Source: a virus
Direction: 5' to 3' (one strand)
Virus record (IMG/VR): IMGVR_UViG_3300047300_000510
Location: 1-33,495 of that record
DNA: 33,495 nucleotides
Part shown: positions 78 to 33,394 of the stretch, piece by piece
Layout of the letters: the number at the start of each line of letters is the position of its first letter
Numbering within the stretch: the stretch's first letter is position 1
Translations under genes and position numbers: made by a program
Notes under the pieces: model-generated
Databases searched by the model: none
Seen by the model: the letters and a program-made list of their open reading frames with translations, nothing else
What the model was told of the DNA's origin: nothing

Positions 78-374
78 TCAGAGTCTGCGCTTGATCCTGT
101 TTTGTCGTTGCGTTTCGTGTCCTTCGTTACTGGACTTGAACCGGTGACAGTGTGGTGGGGTCCGGTCGTGTACGGCTTTCAGGTTGCTGAGTGAGTGATC
201 GTCGTTTGGTATTACGTGATCGACTGTATCAGCGCCGGTTTCTCCGCAGAGATAACAGACCCCGCCATCCCGTTTCAAAACTACAAGACGTCTCGTAGCC
301 CAGTCCCGGGGTAGTCTTTGTTTTCTGTTAGATCCTTGCCATCGAGGTTTCTGGTGTTGAGCGCACCGGCCCAT
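78..374 (-). CDS. HNH endonuclease (cos-associated)
   Basis: Small HNH nuclease of 98 aa from the first ATG. A CxxC pair (CYLCG) is followed by the DHVIP segment and a PHCHRFKSSNEG segment, the usual beta-beta-alpha-metal HNH core. In cos phages such proteins act with terminase at packaging. It is the last leftward gene before the window end, and terS follows across the ends. The frame stays open upstream of this ATG to 431 and encodes PCLEPGC, then the GRCAQH of the predicted protein, which matches the N-terminal zinc-binding part of this family. The real start is therefore probably upstream, although no ATG, GTG or TTG is present there. An ATC at 426-428 preceded by AAGGGCGG is a candidate non-canonical start (116 aa). 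Confidence 0.85.
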   Translation of the reverse strand: MGRCAQHQKPRWQGSNRKQRLPRDWATRRLVVLKRDGGVCYLCGETGADTVDHVIPNDDHSLSNLKAVHDRTPPHCHRFKSSNEGHETQRQNRIKRRL

Positions 375-2491: not shown

Positions 2492-3688
2492 TCAGCAGCA
2501 CTGTTCTAGCGTGAATAGCGGCTCGGGGAGATCCGCTGGCGGTTGGTTGTCTTTCAGCCACTTCTCGACGTTGATCACGTATTCGCGTTCGCCGAGCTCG
2601 GTGCCGGTGAGGCGGCCGAAGTTGCCGTGCATGTAGTTGGCAGCCTGTTCGGCTATCCAGCGGCCAGATCCGACGGGGATGCCTTTGCCCCACCAGAACA
2701 TGCCTCGTTCGCCAGCTTCGACGGCCGGTGCGCAGTTCCACTCGTCGGGATAACCCATGATGCGAGCGACTTCTCGGTGAGTGATGAACCGCGGCAGGGT
2801 CGGGTGGACAAACTCGGTCAGAGCTTTGCCTGTCAGGACGGGTGCCGGCCGGTCGTAGTGCATACGGGCCGGCGCGAACTGGCTCGTGCCGATCTCAACC
2901 GTTGACGTGTGCTCCCAGTCCAGGGCGACGCCGAGATCCTGAGCTCGCTTGTACGCGGTGCCGGACTTCTCTCCAGGCAGCCACTCAACTTTGGCGGCCA
3001 GCTCGGACAGGCGTCTGGTTCGTGGAGTGTCGCGGCCGACGTGACCTTCGACTGCGCCTGGTTCTAGATCCTCTAGATCACCGATCGCGTCTCGGACAGT
3101 CAAGCGTCGTTCCAGGGCCGGAACGTTGACACTGAACGGCTGATCGCTGACAACCCAGAAGTAGCGGTTGCGCTGGGCATAGCCGCCAAGTGATCCGTTG
3201 GAGTGCAGGACGTGCGTCAGGTAGACCTGACGGCCGGTGAGCTTTTCGAACTCGTCTCTGAGCTCACGCATCAAGCTGAGCCCGCCAGTGTAGGCCTGTT
3301 GGACCGACTCGAAGATCGCGACCTGTGGGTTGCACTTGGCCGCGTAGCGGACGAAGTCCCACATGCACGAGTTGGCCGGCGAGTTGACGCCGCGATAGTC
3401 GACGATGTTCTCGTGACCGGTTCCCGAGTAGATCCGCGAGGATCTGGTTGAGAAGCCTGCGCATGGCGGGTTGCCGAAGACGAGATCGGCAGCCATCGAC
3501 GTCCAGGTGTCGGCGTCTCCAGCTTCGAGCTCCCATTCGGTGCCGAGCAGGTGCCGGTTGCCAAAAGCGAGCGGTGATCCGAAGCCGCCAGCATGCTCGC
3601 GCTTGGCTATGACTTTGAATCCGGCTTGGTTCACTCCGAGGGAGAAGCCTCCCGCGAAGCTTTGGCAGTCTATGGCTGTCAGTGTCAT
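2492..3688 (-). CDS. DNA (cytosine-5) methyltransferase
   Basis: A 398-aa enzyme that would transfer a methyl group from S-adenosylmethionine to C5 of cytosine in DNA. Motif I is FAGGFSLG near the N-terminus and motif IV is GNPPCAGFS with the catalytic Cys at about residue 76. A motif VI equivalent FESV replaces the usual ENV. Motif VIII is QRNRYFWV, motif IX RPAPVLTG and motif X MGYPDEWN. The ATG at 3688 is chosen because it follows the upstream stop by four bases and directly precedes motif I; a longer frame to 3760 would only add sequence antisense-independent of the family and overlapping the neighbour. It probably protects phage DNA from restriction. Target sequence unknown. Confidence 0.88.
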   Translation of the reverse strand: MTLTAIDCQSFAGGFSLGVNQAGFKVIAKREHAGGFGSPLAFGNRHLLGTEWELEAGDADTWTSMAADLVFGNPPCAGFSTRSSRIYSGTGHENIVDYRGVNSPANSCMWDFVRYAAKCNPQVAIFESVQQAYTGGLSLMRELRDEFEKLTGRQVYLTHVLHSNGSLGGYAQRNRYFWVVSDQPFSVNVPALERRLTVRDAIGDLEDLEPGAVEGHVGRDTPRTRRLSELAAKVEWLPGEKSGTAYKRAQDLGVALDWEHTSTVEIGTSQFAPARMHYDRPAPVLTGKALTEFVHPTLPRFITHREVARIMGYPDEWNCAPAVEAGERGMFWWGKGIPVGSGRWIAEQAANYMHGNFGRLTGTELGEREYVINVEKWLKDNQPPADLPEPLFTLEQCC

Positions 3689-3692
3689 GTTG

Positions 3693-3977
3693 CTAAGCGG
3701 CCTTCCAAATGATCGCCTTACGGCCGGAGTCCAGAACGGCGCGAAGTCCGGTGTCCACAACCAGGCCGCGCTTGACGAGCTCGGCTCGACGAGAACGGAT
3801 CCCAGACTCGGAAGCCCGAGGCGCGTTCTTCAGGTTGCGGTAACGCTCGACAAGCGCAACGTCGGTTGCGGGACGCTTCAGAGCTTTCAGGATCGCCTCT
3901 TGCGTCGCTGTCGGGTCCTTGACGGAGTCGGCAGCCTCGTGACTGGTGATCGGGTCGGTTTTGCGTGCGTGTGCCAT
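3693..3977 (-). CDS. Winged-helix DNA-binding protein
   Basis: A 94-aa protein opening with DPITSHEAADSV, typical of small phage winged-helix proteins. The segment ATQEAILKALKRPATDVALV is followed by RASESGIRSRRAELVKRGLV, the likely recognition helix, and a beta wing with GRKAIIWKA. A strong GAGGAGA precedes the ATG. It sits just before the methyltransferase, with the tiny membrane-protein gene upstream overlapping as TAATG. It is likely a regulator or replication accessory; the target is unknown. Confidence 0.75.
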   Translation of the reverse strand: MAHARKTDPITSHEAADSVKDPTATQEAILKALKRPATDVALVERYRNLKNAPRASESGIRSRRAELVKRGLVVDTGLRAVLDSGRKAIIWKAA

Positions 3978-4153
3978 TAGTTTCTCCTCATGATTGCGCG
4001 GCCGGCAGCGATTAGGGCCCAGAACAGGGCGGTGAAGAAGACTCCCGCAAAGAAGTCATAGTTGAGAGCGACGATCCAGTTCAGGAACACTCCCAAGCCG
4101 ATGATGGCAGCCATAAAAGCTGCGACAAGAATAAAGTCTAGAAGGTTGCGCAT
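3977..4153 (-). CDS. Tiny two-helix membrane protein
   Basis: A 58-aa gene found by reading the gap. Two hydrophobic stretches are visible: LLDFILVAAFMAAIIGLGVF and, after a short polar turn, FFAGVFFTALFWALIAAG. A basic end (RAIMRRN) follows. Both ends overlap neighbours as TAATG. It lies in the early left arm, far from the lysis genes, so it is not an obvious holin. Such proteins may change the host membrane or exclude other phages, but this is conjecture. Confidence 0.6.
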   Translation of the reverse strand: MRNLLDFILVAAFMAAIIGLGVFLNWIVALNYDFFAGVFFTALFWALIAAGRAIMRRN

Positions 4154-4464
4154 TACGCGGCCGCCTTGCTGATCTCAAGGTAAGGGTTCTCTGCAGTCTT
4201 GAAGGTGACGATGTAACCGTGCTTGGCAAGAACTTCGGCTGCGGCGGCTAGCTTCATAGTGATAGTCAGCTTCTCTTCAGCGGTGTGAAGTCTGAAGTGG
4301 CCCGCGAACAGCCAAGTGACGTGCACGACGTCGCCGGTCCAGTTCAGCTCGGTGTCGAAGCCGTCGTTCCAGGTGCTCACCATCGGCTTGCGCCACTGGG
4401 CCCGGTCGAAACCGGCTGCCTTCAAGATCCTAGTAACCGATCTAGCGTTTAGTTTGGTGCTCAT
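4153..4464 (-). CDS. Hypothetical protein under shared leader 1
   Basis: A 103-aa protein. The N-terminal TKLNARSVTRILKAAGFDRA is a helical segment. The middle is aromatic and beta-like (VVHVTWLFAGHF), and the C-terminus has a helix (KLAAAAEVLAKHGY) and a strand. It resembles proteins often found in actinophages, but no function is known. Its ATG has AGGGAAAA upstream, part of a composite leader shared with two unrelated genes at 8791 and 16816, so it is probably co-regulated with them. Confidence 0.65.
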   Translation of the reverse strand: MSTKLNARSVTRILKAAGFDRAQWRKPMVSTWNDGFDTELNWTGDVVHVTWLFAGHFRLHTAEEKLTITMKLAAAAEVLAKHGYIVTFKTAENPYLEISKAAA

Positions 4465-4564
4465 TTGTTTTCCCTATCTGTCAGGCTATTTGCCTAACAA
4501 GATCAACATTACTGTGAAATAAGGATCGCAAAGCACATTTATGCCAGTGTTATCAAACTGTTAC
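4465..4564 (-). promoter_or_regulatory. Shared leader module, copy 1
   Basis: Upstream of ATG 4464, reading leftward: a 16-bp operator-like motif GTAACAGTTTGATAAC (4549-4564), 12 bases, GTGCTTT (4530-4536), 18 bases, TAATGT (4506-4511), eight bases, a 6-bp hairpin with loop AAATA (4481-4497), then AGATAGGGAAAA before the ATG. The same order recurs upstream of 8791 and 16816. The operator overlaps the end of the rusA-like gene. The promoter reading is inferred; the repeats are seen directly. Confidence 0.55.
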
Positions 4565-5023
4565 ACTCAGTAACAATGCATTGTTTTTATCTTCTTCGGC
4601 AGCCAAGCGAACCCTGACGTGAACGCCCGCGTCTTCAGGTCGAGGCGCGTAAAGCTTTGTTGCCTCCCACCTGACGATCAGGCTGTCGTCCTGGATCGCT
4701 TTCGCGTCAATGCTCAACGCGTCACCAAGCGCACGACAAAGCTTGTCCGTGTCCGGTGCCACTGACGGCCAGATCCGCTTCACCGTCTTCGGCTTCGGTA
4801 AGTAAAACGTGGCCTGGACGACGACGGGATCCGTGAACGGTCGAGAGTCACCGGATCGCACCCACTCCGCAAACACTGCCTTCGCGATTGCTTGCCGCCA
4901 CGGCTTCACGTCCGAAGCTTCAACAAACCTTGGAGCGCCAGAAGGTGAAACGCCTAAGTAACGCTTGGACCCCTGCGGTCTAGGAGTGCCAAGCGCTACG
5001 AAGGCGAGCTCTTGATCAGTCAC
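4553..5023 (-). CDS. rusA: RusA-like Holliday junction resolvase
   Basis: A 156-aa protein with the RusA pattern: GTPRPQGSKR near the N-terminus and the acidic metal-binding region PDTDKLCRALGDALS followed by IQDDSLIVRW. These Asp residues are the catalytic ligands in RusA. It would cut four-way junctions during recombination or clear branches before packaging. The start is GTG 5023, overlapping the upstream 51-aa gene by 8 bases; the ribosome-binding site is weak, implying coupling. It sits with SSB and the replication protein. Confidence 0.85.
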   Translation of the reverse strand: MTDQELAFVALGTPRPQGSKRYLGVSPSGAPRFVEASDVKPWRQAIAKAVFAEWVRSGDSRPFTDPVVVQATFYLPKPKTVKRIWPSVAPDTDKLCRALGDALSIDAKAIQDDSLIVRWEATKLYAPRPEDAGVHVRVRLAAEEDKNNALLLSVTV

Positions 5024-5584: not shown

Positions 5585-6454
5585 CTATTGCGCAGAAGCC
5601 GGTCGGGCCGGTCGCGAAACAGGGTTACAAGTGGTGCAAATAACTGCGACGCGATTATGCTCGCAGCGTTCGATTGGGTTCAGTTCACGATCACGGCGCA
5701 GACGCTCAGCTTCAGCTTCCTGCTCCGCTTTCATCCTGGCCCGCTCCTGACGATCCTTCTCGATCCGCTCGAGCTTCTCCGCCTCTTCCTTCAGCTTCCG
5801 CTCTTCAGGCGACAACACTCGGACCGGATACGGATCATCAAGCCAACCTTCGCGGTTCAACCAGGTTGATGCGTGAGGCACGAACTGGACCGGTGGGAGA
5901 TTGGGATCAGTCGCAAGCTTGACGGCACCCTCGACGATCAGCTCGCCATCGGCAGCCGAAGCAGCCTTGACAAAAGCCTTCCAAGCCGATCCTTTGCCGA
6001 CCTTCCTGGGGTAAACCGACCAAAACTCTGCGAACAGTCGCTCAAGCTTGGCTTGAGCAAGATCTTTCTTCTCTTCAGTCTTCTTCTCTATAGTATTCTT
6101 TACCCCTGCATCGCCCGCTGGCGGGTTATCCGCCGGCGCAAAATGAACCGACGGTGCGAACGGGTCCTTCGTGATCCAGAGAGCCGGTCCCATCCGGCCG
6201 TCCTCGTGGCGCGTCTGAGACCTTTCTAGGTATCCAGCGTCCTCTAACTCCTGGATAGCCGTTCTGATGGCTCTATCGCCATCCTGGCCGTTCCTAGCTA
6301 GCCTCTCGCGCGACACCTCGAAGCCAACCGCGTGACTCATCAGCTCGGCCAGCAGTCCGCGAGCCTTGTAGCTGAGTCTGGTGTCACGAACCCAACTGTT
6401 GGGCAACTGTGTGAAATGCCCGTCGAACGAGTGCTTCCCACGAATAATCGGCAT
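5585..6454 (-). CDS. Replisome organiser-like winged-helix protein
   Basis: A 289-aa protein. The N-terminal part (about residues 15-95) is a winged helix: TQLPNSWVRDTRLSYKARGL, then LMSHAVGFEVSRERLARN and ELEDAGYLERSQTR. A linker leads to FAEFWSVYPRKVGKGSAWKA, a hallmark of phage replication initiators and helicase loaders of the DnaD-like type. A long charged coiled coil follows (about 215-265). The C-terminus holds CEHNRVAVICTTC, a possible zinc knuckle. It probably loads the host helicase at the phage origin. The start overlaps the dUTPase stop as TAATG. Confidence 0.78.
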   Translation of the reverse strand: MPIIRGKHSFDGHFTQLPNSWVRDTRLSYKARGLLAELMSHAVGFEVSRERLARNGQDGDRAIRTAIQELEDAGYLERSQTRHEDGRMGPALWITKDPFAPSVHFAPADNPPAGDAGVKNTIEKKTEEKKDLAQAKLERLFAEFWSVYPRKVGKGSAWKAFVKAASAADGELIVEGAVKLATDPNLPPVQFVPHASTWLNREGWLDDPYPVRVLSPEERKLKEEAEKLERIEKDRQERARMKAEQEAEAERLRRDRELNPIERCEHNRVAVICTTCNPVSRPARPASAQ

Positions 6455-6882
6455 TAGGCGACCTCACGGCAGCCGGCCTCAGAACAGGTCACAGCCTTGT
6501 CGTCCAAAGCTCGCTTGCAGTCAGGGCACTTACCGGTCACGCCGTCGTATCCGGCCGCCTGACGAGCCGCGTTGATGCCACGCTTCTCGAAATACTTGGC
6601 CAGGAACTCGTCAGCGTCACAGTCGACCACGAGCATCAGGTTCATCAGGAAGTGGAACGCGTCCACCAGCTCCGAAACGTAAGCGTCACGGTTCACGTGC
6701 TTGCTCTTGGCCCACGGCTTCCAACCAGTCTCAGCCAAAGCTTCGTGCAGCTCGTCCTGGAGCGCGAGCACGTTCCATCTGATCCACTCAAGCTTCTGCT
6801 CGTCGTTGAGATCCTTCGGATCTGCGCCGAACGAGTTCACCTGAAGGTTCCACTGGGCGTTGAGTGCGTCTTGTAGTGTCAT
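6454..6882 (-). CDS. All-alpha dUTPase / MazG-like with zinc ribbon
   Basis: A 142-aa enzyme probably hydrolysing dUTP to dUMP and pyrophosphate. The helical core has ALQDELHEALAETGWKPW and YVSELVDAFHFLMNLML, the acidic metal-binding pattern of dimeric all-alpha NTP pyrophosphatases. The C-terminal 25 residues add a separate zinc ribbon (CPDC and CSEAGC). GAGGAGA precedes the ATG. With dCMP deaminase, the thymidylate-synthase-family enzyme and the dNMP kinase next door, it would feed dUMP and keep uracil out of phage DNA. Confidence 0.8.
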   Translation of the reverse strand: MTLQDALNAQWNLQVNSFGADPKDLNDEQKLEWIRWNVLALQDELHEALAETGWKPWAKSKHVNRDAYVSELVDAFHFLMNLMLVVDCDADEFLAKYFEKRGINAARQAAGYDGVTGKCPDCKRALDDKAVTCSEAGCREVA

Positions 6883-6895
6883 GTTGCTTTCTCCT

Positions 6896-7363
6896 CTAGT
6901 TGATTACTACAACCTGGAGACCGCACGCCTCCAGGAACTTGATTGGTGTTTCAATGTCTGCGTGAGCGTCTTCGGGCCCTGAGCGGAACACGACACGAGT
7001 CACGCCAGAGTTGGCGACAAGCTTCGCGCATTCCCAGCAGCACGGGTTGGTCACGTAGATCGTGCCGCCCGCATAGTCGCGACGATCCGCAAACAGCAGC
7101 GCGTTAGCTTCGGCATGAACCGAGACGCAGTTGGCGTAGCTCGAGGATCGGTCGACGTACGGGTTGGCTTCTTTGCTTCGGGGACAGAACGCGGCGCACG
7201 AACTGGCTGCCTTGTAACCGGCCGGTGATCCGTTATAGCCGACCGACACTGGACGGTTGGACTGGTCCACGACGACGGCACCGACCTGACGGTTAGTGCA
7301 CTTGCTTCGTCCAGCTATCGAGTCGGCGACACGCATCCACGTCTCGTCCCAGCTCTGCCTCAC
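6896..7363 (-). CDS. dCMP deaminase
   Basis: A 155-aa zinc enzyme converting dCMP to dUMP. HAEAN (residues 83-87) carries the zinc His and catalytic Glu, and CWEC (109-112) gives the two zinc Cys. An extra Cys/His-rich insert SSCAAFCPRSKE near residue 55 is common in phage and ComEB-type enzymes and may bind a second zinc. The start is GTG 7363, overlapping the upstream stop as GTGA, with GAGGTGA before it. It is the middle of a coupled nucleotide-metabolism cluster. Confidence 0.9.
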   Translation of the reverse strand: MRQSWDETWMRVADSIAGRSKCTNRQVGAVVVDQSNRPVSVGYNGSPAGYKAASSCAAFCPRSKEANPYVDRSSSYANCVSVHAEANALLFADRRDYAGGTIYVTNPCCWECAKLVANSGVTRVVFRSGPEDAHADIETPIKFLEACGLQVVVIN

Positions 7364-8049
7364 TTGGTCACCTCAGGGAACGGATCGCCTGTCTCGATGT
7401 AGTGATCCAAGATCCAGAAGTGGCGCTCGTAGATGTGCAAGCTCGCGGCGTGCCAAATAACCTGGCCAGGTTCAACGAAGACGCCATGCTCGGCAAGATC
7501 CTTGATGATCTGGTCTTGCGTCCATCGGTGCCAAGCGTGGTCGTTCCGATAACCGAACACGACGTCATTGCTTCGCATCTGAACCACGACGACAAGCTGA
7601 CCATTGCGGATCAGATACTGGACCGCGTTAGTGCAGATGAAGTCGCTCATGCCGTCACGGTTCCAATCGGTGTGGATCGACGGGCGAGTGTAGACAGCCG
7701 TCGCTCTGCGAGTGTTCTGATCCTGAACCAACGCTTTCACCACGTTTTCCATCTGGCTGCCGTTAGCTTCGTCAAGCAGAAGGAACCCGTAGTTGCTGTT
7801 GATCTCACCGGCCGGAGTCGCGACACGCTTCCAGATCGCGGGAGCGCCGCCAGGAATGTCGTTCACGTTCAGGCTGCCTGACAGATACCAGGCCAGCTCG
7901 CGCTCGATGTAGTCGCCGTTAGGCTTGCCGAAGATGCTCGGCTCGTCAGCGATAAACGACTCGCCCACCAGCTCAAGCGTGCCGGCCACGACGGGCCCGG
8001 TCTTGCGTAGCTGAGCGAAACGGTCTCTAAGAGTATTGGCGAAGATCAT
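7360..8049 (-). CDS. Thymidylate synthase-family enzyme (possible pyrimidine hydroxymethylase)
   Basis: A 229-aa member of the thymidylate synthase fold, shorter than the host enzyme (about 265). The catalytic Cys is at 139 in DFICTNAVQYLI, MRSND at 158-162 holds the phosphate-binding Arg/Ser, and HIYERH at 205-210 matches the late His/Tyr motif. Where thymidylate synthase has Asn in PFNIA, this protein has Asp170 (RNDHA); Asp at this place marks dCMP hydroxymethylases. It may therefore make a 5-modified pyrimidine nucleotide rather than dTMP, though dUTPase and dCMP deaminase neighbours favour a dUMP substrate. The ATG overlaps the kinase stop as ATGA. Confidence 0.82.
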   Translation of the reverse strand: MIFANTLRDRFAQLRKTGPVVAGTLELVGESFIADEPSIFGKPNGDYIERELAWYLSGSLNVNDIPGGAPAIWKRVATPAGEINSNYGFLLLDEANGSQMENVVKALVQDQNTRRATAVYTRPSIHTDWNRDGMSDFICTNAVQYLIRNGQLVVVVQMRSNDVVFGYRNDHAWHRWTQDQIIKDLAEHGVFVEPGQVIWHAASLHIYERHFWILDHYIETGDPFPEVTK

Positions 8050-8555
8050 GCTAGTTGATCCTTGACGAGCGACACGACGTAGTTCAGATCCTCATCGTTA
8101 GGGTCCGACAGTCGCGTGTAGTCGAACACTTTCGCGTAGGCTTCATAAAACTCCCAGACCTGACGAACATGATTCGCCTGTAGATAGTCTTCTCCGCGAG
8201 TCTTCAACCGGTAAACGATCTGCTCGAGGGAAGTGGTCATGATGATCCGCTGAGCTTCGATCTCGTCCAGGAACGACTCGAACGATCCGATGATCGGCTT
8301 CATCTTCGACTGGCCGCGATACAGCGGACCGTAGATCATCTCACCGACATGCCACCGGTCAGCGACCAAGACGTCGTTACGGCCCAAAGCTTTGAGCGGA
8401 TCGAAATACTCGACCAACATGCTGTCGTTCTCTGGAACGCCCTTGTGGGCCCTGATCACGTTAGCGTCGGTTTCGTTGATTAGTTTCTCTGCTACACGAT
8501 CCGCGAAAGTAGACTTTCCGGAACCGTCCACACCTTCAATGATGATGACTGGCAT
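8046..8555 (-). CDS. Thymidylate/deoxynucleotide monophosphate kinase
   Basis: A 169-aa P-loop kinase. The Walker A is GVDGSGKST at residues 8-16, and VADRWHVGEMIYG is the DR(Y/W) motif of the thymidylate kinase family. A lid-like basic segment RLKTRGEDYL follows near residue 117. It would phosphorylate dTMP, or a modified nucleotide made by the neighbouring thymidylate-synthase-family enzyme. The start overlaps the upstream stop as TAATG. It is short for the family, but motifs are intact. Confidence 0.82.
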   Translation of the reverse strand: MPVIIIEGVDGSGKSTFADRVAEKLINETDANVIRAHKGVPENDSMLVEYFDPLKALGRNDVLVADRWHVGEMIYGPLYRGQSKMKPIIGSFESFLDEIEAQRIIMTTSLEQIVYRLKTRGEDYLQANHVRQVWEFYEAYAKVFDYTRLSDPNDEDLNYVVSLVKDQLA

Positions 8556-8791
8556 TATGCGGCCTTTCTCAGGATCGCGCCAACGCCGTCATAGTCGTCA
8601 ATGCTAAAAGTTGCAACGTTGCCGTCACTGGAAACAACCGTCCAGTAGTGGCGCGCACCACGGGCCCTGGCGGCCTGGTAATAGATCGCGTTGCCATTGT
8701 TATCTACTAGGTAGACGTCTTGGTCAGCACGAACAAACTTCAGGTCGCGCTCAATAGCTCTAGCTAATAGTTCAGCTTGCTTGTAGTTCAT
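8555..8791 (-). CDS. Hypothetical protein under shared leader 2
   Basis: A 78-aa protein. Start ATG 8791 is chosen over a longer frame (8809) because GAGGAGA lies just before it. An N-terminal helix (YKQAELLARAIERDLKFV) is followed by strands (QDVYLVDNNGNAIYY, ARHYWTVVS, NVATFSIDDYDGVGAIL). No function is recognised. It is the first gene of the nucleotide cluster transcript and carries the same composite leader as the genes at 4464 and 16816. Confidence 0.65.
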   Translation of the reverse strand: MNYKQAELLARAIERDLKFVRADQDVYLVDNNGNAIYYQAARARGARHYWTVVSSDGNVATFSIDDYDGVGAILRKAA

Positions 8792-8889
8792 TTTCTCCTC
8801 TATCTGCAAGCCTTTTGACTTGCATAAATAACTATACGAGAAAACGAGGGACTAACTGCACCAAAACAGTCCAGTTATCAAAATGTTAT
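8792..8889 (-). promoter_or_regulatory. Shared leader module, copy 2
   Basis: Reading leftward: operator-like ATAACATTTTGATAAC (8874-8889, 14 of 16 bases as copy 1), 12 bases, GTGCAGT (8855-8861), 18 bases, TATAGT (8831-8836), seven bases, a hairpin GCAAGT..GCTTGC (8806-8823), then AGATAGAGGAGAAA before ATG 8791. Spacing between operator and GTGC is identical to copy 1. It probably drives the dNTP-metabolism genes down to the replication genes. The operator overlaps the end of the HNH-like gene. Confidence 0.55.
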
Positions 8890-9201
8890 GACGCGCGTCC
8901 AGTCGTCGCCCAGATACCAAGTCTTTCCCGTCCGCAGATCCTTCACAGGAATGGCTCTCGGGTTTTGCCAGCGTTCAAGCTTCCAACCGTGCTCGCGGGC
9001 CAGGTCAGCCATTACTGGATCGGCTTCGATGAGGAAGTTCATGCGGCTGCACAACAGGACAAGGTTCGACGGGACGTCCAAAGCTTTCGATCCGCCCATG
9101 CCTCTGTTGGCTCGATGGTTAGGGGAGACGCGTTCCGTCTCGCCACAGTGCAAGCAATACCCGTCCCGATCCTGAAGCCGGCGAAACTGTCTAGCGTTCA
9201 A
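8878..9201 (-). CDS. HNH-like endonuclease
   Basis: A 107-aa protein. RDGYCLHCGETERV gives the first zinc knuckle, SPNHRANRGMGGSKALD the His-containing strand, and NLVLLCSRMN the second half of the HNH fold. A C-terminal extension contains the RTGKTWYLGDDW segment. It starts at TTG 9201, overlapping the upstream stop; no ATG lies before the HNH core. It lies in the recombination cluster, so it may be a Holliday or flap nuclease, or a selfish or defence-related nuclease. Unlike the gene at the left end it is not next to cos. Confidence 0.75.
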   Translation of the reverse strand: MNARQFRRLQDRDGYCLHCGETERVSPNHRANRGMGGSKALDVPSNLVLLCSRMNFLIEADPVMADLAREHGWKLERWQNPRAIPVKDLRTGKTWYLGDDWTRVITF

Positions 9202-11439: not shown

Positions 11440-11769
11440 ATGTTTTTTGAAAACGACGACCAGAAAGCGGATCTGAAGAAACTGCTTGATGCCCAGTGGG
11501 AAGCAGATGAGATCGTCCCGTGCGTCAACTATCCCGACGCTTACTTTCCCGAGCTTGCGTCAGACGCGCTCGACATTGCGGAGCAGGCCAGGAAGATGTG
11601 CTACGGCTGCCCGATCGTGGCCCAGTGTCTTCAGTACGCCATCAAGTGGGAGGTCTACGGCGTTTGGGGCGGAACCTCAGCGAACCAACGAAAGCTTTTC
11701 CGACGATCCGCAGGCTTGCCAATCCCGTCGCGCACGCCGTTTCACGACTGGGCCGGAGAAGGCGCTTAG
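11440..11769 (+). CDS. whiB: WhiB-like iron-sulfur transcription regulator
   Basis: A 109-aa WhiB-family protein. The four cluster ligands are C28, C54, C57 and C63 (CYGCPIVAQC), followed by the GVWGG turn at 74-78 and a basic tail QRKLFRRSAG for DNA contact. Start ATG 11440 has GAGGAGAAAC before it; a longer frame to 11392 lacks this support. WhiB proteins carry a 4Fe-4S cluster and usually bind region 4 of the primary sigma factor. It is the only plus-strand gene in the left arm and ends overlapping the sigma-like gene tail to tail by four bases. It marks the host as actinobacterial. Confidence 0.92.
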   Translation: MFFENDDQKADLKKLLDAQWEADEIVPCVNYPDAYFPELASDALDIAEQARKMCYGCPIVAQCLQYAIKWEVYGVWGGTSANQRKLFRRSAGLPIPSRTPFHDWAGEGA

Positions 11770-12359
11770 AGCCGGTTGCCGGCCAAAGCGTCCGACAGAC
11801 GCTGAACGGCACGATCCACACGCTTCTTAGCTCCAACCTTGCTGATGCCCTCGAGCTCAGAGATCTCTTGCAGAGTCAGACCGTCACGGAAGCGCCAATA
11901 CAGCACTTCCTTAGTCTCCCTAGGCAAACCGTGGAACGCTCCAGACACGTCAGCCAGGATCGCTTGAGCCATGCCGTGCTCGTTAGGGACGAACTGAGGC
12001 TCGCCAGTGACAGGGTTCACTATGACAAGCGTCTCTGGCGTGTCCTCGAACATGTACGGCAAGATCCGAGACACTCTGGCCGGATCGTAGAAGTTGTCGT
12101 CACGCAAACCGCGGCCAACCTTCAGCTTCTGCTCTTCGGCAGCAAACTTGTTGCCCTCACGGCGAAGCGCCACGTAAAGCTTACCGGTGCCGCCAGGCTC
12201 GTCCCGATACTTGCGCACGGTGCCAGCGTTCTCGATAAGCCACAGGAACAGCGTCGAAGCGATGTCATCCTCTTCGACCGCTCTCCAGCGTGAAGCGATC
12301 CGTCGAGCTACGCGGTTAGCTAGCGCGATCTCGTCAGCGGTAATCGTGTTGCGTTCCAA
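11766..12359 (-). CDS. Sigma factor-like protein
   Basis: A 197-aa protein. The N-terminal helices (ANRVARRIASRWRAVEEDD onward) resemble a reduced sigma region 2. The C-terminal 55 residues (LPRETKEVLYWRFRDGLTLQ, then EISELEGISKVGAKKRVDRA) are a sigma region 4 helix-turn-helix. The middle is a variable linker. It would redirect RNA polymerase or act as a DNA-binding regulator. It starts at TTG 12359 with GGAG nine bases upstream. It faces whiB, whose family members normally bind sigma region 4. Confidence 0.72.
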   Translation of the reverse strand: MERNTITADEIALANRVARRIASRWRAVEEDDIASTLFLWLIENAGTVRKYRDEPGGTGKLYVALRREGNKFAAEEQKLKVGRGLRDDNFYDPARVSRILPYMFEDTPETLVIVNPVTGEPQFVPNEHGMAQAILADVSGAFHGLPRETKEVLYWRFRDGLTLQEISELEGISKVGAKKRVDRAVQRLSDALAGNRL

Positions 12360-14391: not shown

Positions 14392-14850
14392 TTACTCGTC
14401 TAGTTCGTCGATCTGGATAGTGCGCTTTCGGATCGGGATCCCGTTCTCACCGTCGCCGATCTCGTCAGCATCGACATAGATGAAGCCGGTCCCGTCAGGG
14501 CAATAGGCAACGACCAGTTCTCGCTCTTCCAGGCTCGTCAACCAAGCGTCCAGACGCTGGCTCTCGTCTTCGATCAGATCCATGCCCAGCCGCCGCCGGC
14601 CAAGCAGCCTGAGCATCCGAGCTGGATACTGCGTCAGGTGCTCAGCTTTGACCCGCCACGGGATCTCGTCTCGGTAGCGCATCCCAGTCCTTGTCAGTCC
14701 GGCCCTGCTCAGGGCAGCTGAAACGGCACTACGGGCAACAACGACGTTGTAGCGGTTCTTGATCCAGTCCGCGATCTGAGCGTGCGTCAGGCCCTGATCG
14801 ACCAGTGTCTGAAGTTCCTGAGTAGGCGGCAGAAGCCTCGGTGCCGGCAT
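14392..14850 (-). CDS. Helix-turn-helix protein divergent from integrase
   Basis: A 152-aa protein. An N-terminal helix-turn-helix is seen at about residues 10-55: TQELQTLVDQGLTHAQIAD, then ARSAVSAALSRAGLT. The conserved middle is DEIPWRVKAEHLTQYPARML and RRLGMDLIEDESQRLDAW, a pattern familiar from actinophages. GGAGGGATC precedes the ATG. Transcribed away from the integrase, it shares with it a 217-base region containing inverted TGCAAC repeats, so it may be the lysogeny or early-gene regulator. It does not look like a classical CI repressor. Confidence 0.7.
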   Translation of the reverse strand: MPAPRLLPPTQELQTLVDQGLTHAQIADWIKNRYNVVVARSAVSAALSRAGLTRTGMRYRDEIPWRVKAEHLTQYPARMLRLLGRRRLGMDLIEDESQRLDAWLTSLEERELVVAYCPDGTGFIYVDADEIGDGENGIPIRKRTIQIDELDE

Positions 14851-15067: not shown

Positions 15068-16054
15068 GTGGCACGACGGTTACGACTGACCGAAGCTCGG
15101 GACGAGTATGTGAAGCACTGCCAGGCCAGGAACTTGACGGCCGGCACCGTGAGATCCAACAGGCAAGCCGTGGACGCCCTGCTCGAAGCTGTAGGGGACG
15201 TCTGGGTCGACAAGATCGAGCATCAGCACCTAGACAAGGTGTTCGCGATCCACACGTGGCAGACGTCCACTAGGAACCAGCGACTGGGCCAGTTCAAGCA
15301 GTTCTTCAAGTGGTGCCGAGCTCGCGGCTTGATGCGACCGAACTCTGATCCGCTGTTCGGATGGCGCAACGAGAAGGTGCCTGTCACGCCTCGGCTACTG
15401 ATCCCAAGATCCGAGTGGGGTAGACTGTTCGCCGCTTGTGGGCACCCGCAAGAGACGATGCTTGTCGCCACGGGGTTGTTCCTGTTCCTTCGCGGCAGTG
15501 AGCAGCGACTGCTTCAGCTGAAGCATGTGCACTTGGACAAGGGAGAGATCCAGGTGTACAGGACGAAGACGAAGGAACACGACGTCATGCCTATCTCTTC
15601 CGAGCTTGCTGAGCACTTGCGCGAGCATCTGCGCTACTTGGCAGCCGAGCACGGATCAGATCCGAACTTCTACTTGATCCCCAAGCGGGCCAACAACAAC
15701 CGAGGGCCCAACGGCAAGTACGTGCCCTGTCACGGCATCGTCCCGACCAAGCCAGTCCACCTGCCGCACCTGGCTTTGCAACGCGTCTACGCCAGAGCCG
15801 GCTATCCCACGATGCGCGAAGGCGAACACACGTTACGCAGGTCGGGTGCCCGAGCTTACTTCGACTCGCTAGTGGATCAAGGCTACGACGGAGCGCTGCG
15901 CAGAGTTCAGTCCATGCTCGGCCACGCCCACTCAGCTATGACCGAGCGGTATCTTGGCCTCGACCTGGACCGAGCATCACGCAACGCGGATCTGCGGCTC
16001 AAGCCTATGTTCCCGACGGCCGGCGAGAACGTCGTTCAACTGCGGAAGGCCTAA
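15068..16054 (+). CDS. int: Tyrosine integrase
   Basis: A 328-aa tyrosine recombinase that would join phage and host att sites. The SAM-like core-binding domain lies at about residues 5-90. The catalytic residues are all present: R142 (LFLRGSEQ), Lys in RTKTKEHD near 167, H254 and R257 (HTLRRSG), H286 (LGHAHS) and Y295 (MTERYLG). Start GTG 15068 has GAGGAG 6-7 bases upstream. It is on the plus strand, first of three co-directional genes closed by the terminator at 16516-16556. It supports a temperate lifestyle. Confidence 0.95.
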   Translation: MARRLRLTEARDEYVKHCQARNLTAGTVRSNRQAVDALLEAVGDVWVDKIEHQHLDKVFAIHTWQTSTRNQRLGQFKQFFKWCRARGLMRPNSDPLFGWRNEKVPVTPRLLIPRSEWGRLFAACGHPQETMLVATGLFLFLRGSEQRLLQLKHVHLDKGEIQVYRTKTKEHDVMPISSELAEHLREHLRYLAAEHGSDPNFYLIPKRANNNRGPNGKYVPCHGIVPTKPVHLPHLALQRVYARAGYPTMREGEHTLRRSGARAYFDSLVDQGYDGALRRVQSMLGHAHSAMTERYLGLDLDRASRNADLRLKPMFPTAGENVVQLRKA

Positions 16055-31390: not shown

Positions 31391-32907
31391 AGAATAACTG
31401 CCCTTCGGGTCGTAGTCTTGCGGTCTTTGGAAGCATGTCTGGCCCCGTTAGCTAGAACCGCACATGCGAGTAAGTCAACTTTGCGCGGTGATCCGCGCTT
31501 CTCTTTTCTAAAGCTTCCCGACTCGGTAGCCACGGCGTTTAGAACGTGACGTTGAAGTCTGGGATCTCCGTCGTGCCCGATCTCCTTAGAGATCAGATCC
31601 GACAAAAACTGTTGTGCCATCGGCGCGATGCGATGGTTGGTCGGCGGGATACGCTCGACGCGTCGCTTCCAACGCTTCGACCATTCCAGGACGTCCGGCT
31701 CGTAGAAGCTCGGATCGGCCCAGAGCATCTGCACGTTGTACGTGTCGAACATTTTCTCAACGGCAGCGTTCACGTCGGCCCTGTCGACGGTCCATTCTGG
31801 ATCGTTCGGGTCCGGCTCCCACACCGCGATGACCTTCATCAGGCCCGTGTTCACGTCAACGGCAACTAGTCCTGTGGCGTCTCCTGACACCGAACCGTCG
31901 AAGCCGGCCGTAACCGTAGCTCCGGCTGGGATCGTGCCTTCTCGGCGAGCCTCTGACCAGTGATAAGGACTTACGAAGTCCTCACCGGCCAAACGAACCC
32001 ACTGGTTGAGACGGTAACGCTGGAAGCCCGCGAAGCCTGCAGATCCCGCTTGCGCGATGGCAGCTTCGAAGTCTCCCTGGTCAAGAAGTCCCTCAGCCAG
32101 GTTCGGGTTAGCAATGCGCCAGACGTCGGGATCCGTAGGATCTGCGTCCTGGCCAGCTTCCCACCACCAGAAACCGAACTGACGATCGTCAACCTCACCG
32201 ACAGCGACACGCTTGCCGTGTTCATAAAGTCTTCCGAGCAACGTGTCAGTGTTGCCGCCGGCGGTTGTGATACCTACAACGAGGCTTTCTGGACGGTCGG
32301 CGCTTCCTTGCGTCAGTGCTTCCCAAAGTTCGTCACCTCGCGTATTACTGGCAGACGATGGCCAGGCGTGAAGCTCATCAGCGACTACGAGGGACGGAGC
32401 TAAACCGTGAGCACGCATAGCGTCGGCCGACAGGGCCCGATAAACGGATCCCTTAGACGGCAACTCCATCGCGTCGCGGTAAACCTTGATGATCCTCGAC
32501 AACGCGGGGTTGTCCAGAACCTGCTGCCTAGCTTCGCCGAACACGATCTTCGCCTGTGACCGGTCAGAAGCGGCAGAATAAACTTGTGCACCTTGCGGCC
32601 CGTAGACCAGATGCTCAAGCGCTATCGCGGTGCCAAGCAACGACTTCCCGTTCTTACGCGGGAGCCCGACGAGTGCACGCCTATAGCGCAGCAAACCTGT
32701 TTCAGGATCGAGCTCGAGGAGACGATCCAGAAGCCAACGCTGCCAAGCCGTAAAGCTCAGCGGCTCACCGGCCTTGAAACCTCGGCTAGCCTTCAACAGA
32801 GTGGCAGCAAAGTCTGTGACGTCGACGCCCTTAGTTTTCTCACTGAAAGACGGAACGCTCCAAGCCGGTGCCCAAACTTCACTTGGTTCCGGCAGCGCGT
32901 TCATCAC
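31387..32907 (-). CDS. terL: Terminase large subunit
   Basis: A 506-aa packaging motor. The ATPase part has Walker A LPRKNGKS (82-89) and Walker B LVVADELHAW; the nuclease part has Asp residues in GFDGSVSGDATGLV, WADPSFYEPDV and KVDLLACAVLANG. It cuts concatemers at cos and drives DNA into the prohead. It starts GTG 32907 or ATG 32904, inside the terS gene by about 29 bases. All motifs look intact. Confidence 0.95.
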   Translation of the reverse strand: MMNALPEPSEVWAPAWSVPSFSEKTKGVDVTDFAATLLKASRGFKAGEPLSFTAWQRWLLDRLLELDPETGLLRYRRALVGLPRKNGKSLLGTAIALEHLVYGPQGAQVYSAASDRSQAKIVFGEARQQVLDNPALSRIIKVYRDAMELPSKGSVYRALSADAMRAHGLAPSLVVADELHAWPSSASNTRGDELWEALTQGSADRPESLVVGITTAGGNTDTLLGRLYEHGKRVAVGEVDDRQFGFWWWEAGQDADPTDPDVWRIANPNLAEGLLDQGDFEAAIAQAGSAGFAGFQRYRLNQWVRLAGEDFVSPYHWSEARREGTIPAGATVTAGFDGSVSGDATGLVAVDVNTGLMKVIAVWEPDPNDPEWTVDRADVNAAVEKMFDTYNVQMLWADPSFYEPDVLEWSKRWKRRVERIPPTNHRIAPMAQQFLSDLISKEIGHDGDPRLQRHVLNAVATESGSFRKEKRGSPRKVDLLACAVLANGARHASKDRKTTTRRAVIL

Positions 32908-33394
32908 GACGTCTCTGCAGCTCGTCTAAAGCGTCACGAACCCTCACCTCGGCCAGGCCCAAACGAGCACGATCCGCAGGGGAGAAACCTAAAGCAGACA
33001 ACCAAGCGGTCATCTGGGCCCTGATGTCCTTCATCTGGGCGATGTACGGGTGAGACACAATCGACCCGTTCGACGTGACGTAGGTTCTCTCAGCCTCGCC
33101 AGTCAGAAACGACAGACGCATCGTCTGCAGCTCGTCTTCGGCCTGGCAGAGCAACGTCACCAAAGTGCGGTCGGCGGCCGGAGCTAGCCAAGTACGGCCG
33201 GCCTCCCAAACGTGAGACCAAAGCTCCAGGCCGGCAGGGCCCAGATCCGCAGGGGGAGTAGGCAGCGAAGACACGCCTTCGAGAGCCTGGCCAGGAAGTG
33301 GAGCGGCCGGAAGGGAACGGTGGCCAGGATTGCCTAGTGCTCGTTGCACCTCGGCAGGCTTTGCGGGCCTTCCATTCGGTCGTCCTGTTGCCAT
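32879..33394 (-). CDS. terS: Terminase small subunit (P27-like)
   Basis: A 171-aa protein. ALGNPGHRSLPAAPLPG near the N-terminus and the helical core (ADRTLVTLLCQAEDELQTMR, then SNGSIVSHPYIAQMKDIRAQ and LSALGFSPADRARLGL) fit the P27 family of small terminases. It would recognise the cos region, in its immediate upstream DNA. AAAGGATAG precedes the ATG. It is the first gene of the late block when read leftward. Confidence 0.85.
   Translation of the reverse strand: MATGRPNGRPAKPAEVQRALGNPGHRSLPAAPLPGQALEGVSSLPTPPADLGPAGLELWSHVWEAGRTWLAPAADRTLVTLLCQAEDELQTMRLSFLTGEAERTYVTSNGSIVSHPYIAQMKDIRAQMTAWLSALGFSPADRARLGLAEVRVRDALDELQRRRDERAAGTK

Follow-up and report, generated by a model that had tools for sequence, protein, structure and literature searches.

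The sequence analysed here, called the window, is a virus record of 33,495 bp from IMG/VR (IMGVR_UViG_3300047300_000510), placed in the bacterial host group. Table 1 lists the features considered. The open reading frame of main interest runs on the minus strand, encodes 229 amino acids, and has an ATG start that overlaps the stop of the upstream kinase ORF. On the plus strand, frame 1 of this interval is interrupted by stops, so the strand, unstated in the original prediction, matters. Four genes follow one another along this operon: kinase, hydroxymethylase, deaminase, and dUTPase_2, with overlaps or short gaps between them.

Table 1. Features of the window and the evidence for each assignment.
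Feature	Position	Strand	Evidence
HNH endonuclease, left record end	78..374	minus	PHROG 333, E 5.3e-22
Divergent cytosine-C5 DNA methyltransferase homologue, linked METHYLTRANSFERASE	2492..3760	minus	Pfam PF00145, E 8.3e-15
Helix-turn-helix protein, probably replication; one cassette boundary	5585..6454	minus	PF13730, E 1e-6
dUTPase_2-family pyrophosphatase, candidate dCTPase/dUTPase like T4 gp56	6454..6882	minus	Pfam PF08761, E 2.3e-12
dCMP deaminase; HAE and CxxC zinc motifs by eye	6896..7363	minus	Pfam PF00383, E 1.3e-20
Predicted T4-type dCMP hydroxymethylase, 229 aa	7360..8049	minus	PDB phmmer, AlphaFold2/Foldseek, tree
Asp170 codon (= T4 Asp179, cytosine selector)	7540..7542	minus	Alignments; hand count from the start at 8049
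Cys139 codon (= T4 nucleophile Cys148)	7633..7635	minus	Alignments; hand count
P-loop thymidylate-kinase-like nucleotide kinase, candidate hydroxymethyl-dCMP kinase; GVDGSGKST loop	8046..8555	minus	PHROG 761 thymidylate kinase, E 6.5e-18
Small HNH-like protein (label by eye, without Pfam match); other cassette boundary	8878..9201	minus	Sequence, sibling gene order
Transcriptional repressor-like protein, divergent from the integrase gene	14392..14850	minus	PHROG 3929, E 1.7e-22
Tyrosine integrase; R, K, HxxR, H, Y catalytic set by eye	15068..16054	plus	PF00589, E 1.7e-11; PHROG 1, E 2.3e-32
Terminase small subunit, right record end	32879..33394	minus	PHROG 83, E 6e-22

The product of the 229-codon ORF belongs to the thymidylate-synthase family, as had been proposed. 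Pfam Thymidylat_synt matches it at E 1.1e-13 and PHROG 160 at E 5.4e-45. With the PDB E-values, these matches exclude chance. Among solved structures searched by sequence (PDB, phmmer), the best match is T4 gp42 (E 1.2e-69). The next families are MilA, a CMP hydroxymethylase (E 1.8e-8), and thymidylate synthase (E 2.1e-6). The identity to T4 gp42 is 47-48%. Compared with the T4 protein, the N-terminus is shorter and the enzyme stops short of the T4 C-terminus. In the predicted model, it has the T4 dCMP hydroxymethylase (dCH) fold without the C-terminal tail of thymidylate synthase.

The motif FGYRNDHA is present and its aspartate is residue 170. The claim that this residue sets T4-type enzymes apart from synthases agrees with the alignments. 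Asp170 aligns with Asp179 of T4 gp42, whereas the synthases of Arthrobacter phage Hankly and Escherichia phage EcWhh-1 have asparagine at the selector position. Passages of PMC6400193 name roles for T4 Cys148, Glu60, Asp179, Asp145, Ser94, Tyr96, Arg123, Arg124, Lys28, and Tyr218. According to them, Asp145 and Ser94 hold the hydroxylating water, and Arg123 and Arg124 contact the phosphate. We compared 25 mechanism-guided positions, 22 of them named in those passages and three (T149, R168, and H216) added by us. The window enzyme agrees with T4 gp42 at every one of them. More precisely, C139, E51, and D170 correspond to T4 Cys148, Glu60, and Asp179, and D136, S85, R114, and R115 to Asp145, Ser94, Arg123, and Arg124. 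The positions of Asp145 and Ser94 are occupied by leucine and proline in the Hankly and EcWhh-1 synthases and in the enzyme of Microbacterium phage Eden. An earlier look at 12 positions showed differences from T4 at 126, 127, 180, and 224, four positions without known role. The MetaGPA study (PMC8670742) found that phage contigs with modified cytosine are best told apart by two positions, 177 and 147 in the numbering of the E. coli synthase; at 177, the modified contigs mostly carry aspartate. The window enzyme presents aspartate at the 177-equivalent and threonine at the His147-equivalent.

The AlphaFold2 model, built with 35 sequences, reached a pLDDT of 93.7 and a pTM of 0.89. The original prediction called for a structural model compared with both families. 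The Foldseek TMq was 0.94 to T4 dCH (6l18, 1b5d, 1b49, 6a9a) and 0.67-0.75 to other families among the matches listed. In the enzyme tree, from which MilA was left out, the window enzyme grouped with those of two relatives, G005 and G002 (98/99), inside the T4-type group. Sequence, active-site positions, predicted fold, and tree place the enzyme in the T4 dCMP hydroxymethylase group, and it is almost certainly of this type. From this placement, the product should be hydroxymethyl-dCMP and not an undefined pyrimidine. The class of enzyme is already known, and we infer the dCMP assignment firmly.

Two other reactions were weighed for this enzyme. The first is that of a dCMP methyltransferase, which would form 5-methyl-dCMP. 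An Asn-to-Asp change alone can make such an enzyme of a thymidylate synthase, a switch cited in PMC8670742. The Eden enzyme combines the aspartate selector with the synthase-like leucine and proline at the T4 Asp145 and Ser94 positions, so forms of this kind seem to exist. (The Eden protein, at L023:4809-5702, is encoded near a dihydrofolate reductase gene and annotated as thymidylate synthase; we consider it a candidate dCMP methylase producing 5mC.) However, the window enzyme keeps the water-activating pair Asp136 and Ser85, and it is far closer to T4 gp42 than to any synthase seen. We rejected the methylase reaction on residues and fold, and consider it very improbable. The second is that of an ordinary thymidylate synthase that makes dTMP and tolerates the aspartate. 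Membership in Thymidylat_synt would fit, as would the many relatives annotated as thymidylate synthase. Against it stand the aspartate selector, the threonine at the His147 position, Asp136 and Ser85, and the T4-type predicted fold. Likewise, all 80 of the viral loci fetched with a canonical synthase (by motif pattern) have asparagine. This reaction was rejected on the same grounds and seems slightly more improbable still.

Relatives of the enzyme are widespread in phages. Matches were found in 1308 of 50,697 phage records; 1132 of them cover at least 80% of the query, all with less than 60% identity. Erwinia phage FBB1 is the best among the matches listed (55.7%). Plasmid records gave 20 matches, and the best 15 of the 20 are at most 32% identical. 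Bacterial genome contigs held four hydroxymethylase loci. The deaminase was the sole other window-like gene there, in three.

The neighbours named in the original prediction (its own kinase, a dCMP deaminase, and a dUTPase) are all present by Pfam and PHROG matches. For the kinase, Pfam Thymidylate_kin gives E 4.5e-6 and 26.9 bits, slightly below the 27-bit cut-off. Its homologues are 48% identical in G005 and 53% in G002. The deaminase matches the deoxycytidylate deaminases 2w4l (E 1.1e-15) and 1vq2 (E 1.1e-14) in the PDB; we take the latter to be the T4 dCMP deaminase. The dUTPase_2 protein resembles T4 gp56, which is annotated dUTPase/dCTPase (BLASTP E 3e-9 in a single comparison, 27% over 106 columns), and both proteins match PHROG 18650. 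In the PDB sequence search, it had no strong match: the best was unrelated (E 0.073), and the dimeric dUTPase 1w2y gave E 0.41. So, the candidate dCTPase role comes solely from the similarity to T4 gp56. Specificity of the kinase for hydroxymethyl-dCMP and of the dUTPase_2 protein for dCTP are candidate assignments, short of proof. The original prediction was silent on this gp56-like character of the 'dUTPase', as it was on the integrase, the repressor, and the divergent C5-methyltransferase homologue.

We collected 50 IMG/VR records (L116-L165, many of them short fragments) whose terminase large subunit is at least 75% identical to that of the window over the matched part. The hydroxymethylase and cassette occur in two, G002 and G005, and both have all four genes in the same order. 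Where the cassette is missing, the two flanking genes overlap or lie no more than about 30 bp apart in all five readable relatives (G011, G014, G018, G027, and G047); G039 was left out of this comparison, the region being too divergent. As the flanking genes adjoin in relatives without it, the cassette is a presence/absence module. The exact set of four is not general, since BLAST with the window proteins in 101 other hydroxymethylase loci found the deaminase in 52, and relatives of the kinase and of the dUTPase_2 protein in one each. Between the kinase and the HNH-like gene sits an ORF of 84 amino acids (8555-8809, minus). It has a weak recombination-directionality-factor match (PHROG 7506, E 0.0027) and no homologue in the eight siblings compared.

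Other DNA-modification genes occur in siblings that lack the cassette, which may mean that modification modules are exchanged within the lineage. G027 encodes a Mom-family protein and an N6/N4 methylase (L204:3646-4320 and 4295-4966, minus), and G039 and G036 have two C5-methylase matches each. Proteins with a PAPS-reductase domain are present in G018 (L202:2322-3377 and 3630-4310, minus) and G011 (L212:1865-2917); in G018 they have as a near neighbour a protein that matches ParB_N below the cut-off. In G005, a protein at L198:16201-16851 (minus) matches the helical domain of 5-hmdU DNA kinases (PF18723, E 5.6e-10) and has no homologue among the window proteins compared. It could possibly add another step to the processing of hydroxymethylated bases.

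The window is probably a complete siphophage-like genome of 33.5 kb, opened near its packaging site. In seven sibling records the terminase small subunit gene adjoins the HNH gene with a gap of 143-225 bp, and the same gap summed across the two ends of the window is 178 bp (101 + 77). The ends of the window share no repeat 9 to 200 bases long. It encodes both a tyrosine integrase and a repressor, the pair that marks a temperate phage, and lysogeny would be expected from these genes. The integrase has homologues in G014 and G027 (aligned with that of the window), and the repressor is 60% identical in G014 and 69% in G027. The tyrosine integrase family was found in none of 50 other hydroxymethylase-bearing viral contigs, many of them fragments, drawn as mostly the longer ones from 97 hydroxymethylase loci. 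Among the 50 terminase relatives it occurs in two, one below the family cut-off. The cassette and lysogeny are not tied, because G005 has the cassette and no integrase match.

No DNA polymerase or glycosyltransferase family appeared in the 30 ORFs scanned with Pfam or the 30 scanned with PHROGs, of 158. A T4-like host-DNA nuclease was not seen in the window, which was inspected without a dedicated search, and no tRNA was found in it. A sigma-factor-like protein (11766-12359, minus; PHROG 354, Sigma70_r4) has homologues in six of eight siblings, with or without the cassette. A search with the terminase large subunit (E 1e-60) found no host prophage: of 396 genomes from the phylum to which G102 belongs, a single one matched, at 37%, and none did among four genomes that hold hydroxymethylase loci. 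The neighbours of single genes suggest an actinobacterial affinity. In the titles and abstract openings covered, outside subscription journals, a temperate phage with a T4-type hydroxymethylase was not reported. The passage of PMC13230107 consulted has the term in question only as an entry in a list of gene categories.

The C5-methyltransferase homologue likely starts at the ATG at 3688, where its homologues begin. It keeps the PPC nucleophile motif. In motif VI, ENV is replaced by ESV, with the glutamate kept, and in motif X, GN is replaced by GK. It thus departs from the canonical set of PPC, ENV, and GN. We found 31 named phage records that match it, 15 of them Gordonia, Micrococcus, or 'Actinomycetia'. 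Eleven of the 31 were examined; they were chosen from the matches, not at random, and the Gordonia phages are mutually related. In all six of Kurnik, GMA2, DSL-LC01, Sixama, GodonK, and Forza, a gene for MazG or a dUTPase is found no more than about 1.5 kb away, and glycosyltransferase genes are near in five of these six (Forza viewed over 5 kb only). PPC, E[SC]VQQ, and the motif X GK are common to these six phages, the window, and G002 (8/8). In contrast, the comparison phage C5-methylases have PC, ENV, and GN (5/5), and their five phages have no match to the hydroxymethylase.

All eight genomes of the GK clade encode a thymidylate-synthase-family protein with Asp, Thr, and Asp at T4 positions 145, 149, and 179. 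At the Ser94 position, GMA2, Sixama, GodonK, and Forza do not have serine. Their Asp-type enzymes could make either hydroxymethyl or methyl groups. The protein annotated 'thymidylate synthase' in GMA2 belongs to the Thy1 (ThyX) family, and the Asp-type enzyme is encoded elsewhere in that genome. Two clade members lie at L210:5978-7186 and L213:14989-16371, and a ninth member is a fragment. Outside the eight-genome count, the 6.8-kb fragment G001 (L116), with one end of the methyltransferase gene, shows no hydroxymethylase.

We also searched the loci with profiles of the clade. The broad profile, built partly from matches in the same 101 loci, found homologues in 36 of 101 hydroxymethylase loci, compared with 2 of 80 canonical (Asn) synthase loci and 0 of 78 terminase loci. 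For a narrow profile built without those loci, the counts were 35/101, 1/80, and 0/78. The terminase control leaves out L116 and L117, both of which carry the window's own methyltransferase. By clusters of similar DNA, the counts were 19/43 and 2/64 (Fisher p 1.7e-7). In the hydroxymethylase loci, the homologues all lie on the same strand and have 364-423 amino acids, except one cut at the locus end. Most of those found by profile form a second group with the motifs CPC, GENAP, and QNVP. The order in L004 is kinase, hydroxymethylase, deaminase, T4-type alpha-glucosyltransferase, and methyltransferase homologue. The homologue in the window probably works in the same pathway as the cassette, and it may act on hydroxymethylated DNA. 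With a pLDDT of 65.5, its predicted model is of low confidence; the first Foldseek match is M.HaeIII, CmoX is tenth, and this order settles nothing about the reaction.

C5-methyltransferases can remove or exchange a hydroxymethyl group in vitro. The clade might consist of enzymes of the C5-methyltransferase fold that act on 5-hydroxymethylcytosine in DNA and are not methylases of plain cytosine. By attacking C6, they would remove the hydroxymethyl group, swap it, or attach a group donated by a charged SAM-like cofactor that the motif X lysine holds in place. Here, such an enzyme would replace the role of the T4 glycosyltransferase. We regard this reaction as speculative and rather unlikely. 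A somewhat better chance, still below even, goes to a simpler arrangement, compatible with the hydroxymethylase assignment. Hydroxymethyl-dCMP would be made, cytosine would be replaced in part, and the cytosines left over would be methylated by the homologue within a sequence motif, giving a second protection that does not depend on the first. The PPC nucleophile and the motif VI glutamate are kept, as this needs, and neither a phage DNA polymerase nor a host-DNA nuclease that would enforce full replacement was seen. However, the change from GN to GK in motif X is invariant in the clade (8/8), and the co-occurrence with Asp-type enzymes in all eight genomes would be needless for a generic defence methylase.

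For the cassette as a whole, we favour the dCMP hydroxymethylase explanation, with a probability of about 0.85. Cys139 would attack C6 of dCMP, and Asp170 would recognise the cytosine and protonate N3. Methylene-tetrahydrofolate would donate the carbon, and the water held by Asp136 and Ser85 would complete the hydroxymethyl group. During lytic growth, the flux through the cassette would swap dCTP for hydroxymethyl-dCTP. The dUTPase_2 protein would cleave dCTP and dUTP to monophosphates, the hydroxymethylase would convert dCMP, and the kinase would phosphorylate hydroxymethyl-dCMP. A host nucleoside-diphosphate kinase would make the final triphosphate. Incorporation is attributed to the host DNA polymerase, because no phage polymerase was found in the ORFs scanned. 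The deaminase would divert the remaining dCMP to dUMP for dTTP. Since the genome carries an integrase and a repressor, replication of the prophage would use ordinary cytosine, and 5hmC would be present in virion DNA only. There, it could protect against restriction in the next host.

On these genes, the virion DNA quite likely contains 5hmC. The genes do not point to replacement on the full scale of T4, because no glycosyltransferase or DNA polymerase family matched in the ORFs scanned and no host-DNA nuclease was seen. Cytosine replacement may be partial; this is possible because the C5-methyltransferase homologue has no ordinary substrate if every cytosine is hydroxymethylated.

Large lytic phages of the T4 kind are the best-known case of cytosine replacement by 5hmC. 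The kind of enzyme is not new. What is new is the setting: a small integrase-bearing phage, a modular cassette, no glycosyltransferase or polymerase found, and a linked divergent methyltransferase. If the explanation is true, one genome alternates between ordinary cytosine in the prophage and 5hmC in the virion, seemingly using the host polymerase. The cost and benefit of base replacement would then be testable within one system. The hydroxymethylation cassette is compact and transferable, with four genes in a 33.5-kb phage. In many viral contigs, divergent C5-methyltransferase homologues lie close to hydroxymethylase genes; they are a concrete candidate for a step of cytosine hypermodification that has so far gone unrecognised.

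Compared with known systems, the methyltransferase homologue shares its fold family and the PPC nucleophile with CmoX, M.HaeIII, and M.HhaI. It presents a basic lysine where CmoX has Arg350 and M.HhaI has Asn304. According to PMC12783734, this arginine of CmoX binds the extra carboxyl of the cofactor. The homologue does not fit the CmoX pattern of SPPC and Arg350, having NPPC and lysine. No CmoA was recognised among the ORFs scanned, and ESVQQ and GK are specific to the clade.

Other actinophages combine part of these genes. The Microbacterium phages Fulton, Endor, and Inventa, which we take to be cluster EA, have genomes of 40-42 kb with an Asp-type enzyme, a kinase, and MazG in one region. 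However, their enzymes are 32-36% identical to that of the window, and they have annotated glycosyltransferase(s). The abstract on Morrigan, a phage of cluster EA6, describes it as lytic. Micrococcus phage Kurnik (OR756649) is closer, with 53% identity for the hydroxymethylase, 56% for the deaminase, 29% for the kinase, and 43% for the methyltransferase clade, and with an annotated MazG-type pyrophosphatase. It differs in its size (56 kb), its own DNA polymerase, and its two annotated glycosyltransferases, and no integrase is annotated within the 31-kb stretch viewed.

The T4 dCTP-replacement pathway consists of gp56 and gp42, presumably with gp1 and cd, and of the glucosyltransferases. In the window, a gp56 relative, the hydroxymethylase, a nucleotide kinase, and a dCMP deaminase are present and adjacent, and no glucosyltransferase or phage DNA polymerase was found among the ORFs scanned. 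With T4 gp42 (1b49, 1b5d, 6a9a), the window enzyme shares the fold by model, the catalytic cysteine, the glutamate, the aspartate selector, and the Asp/Ser water pair. The T4 gene lies in a genome of 169 kb, beside the beta-glucosyltransferase and near the DNA polymerase, whereas the hydroxymethylase of the window lies in an integrase-bearing siphophage-like genome of 33.5 kb, beside its own kinase and deaminase.
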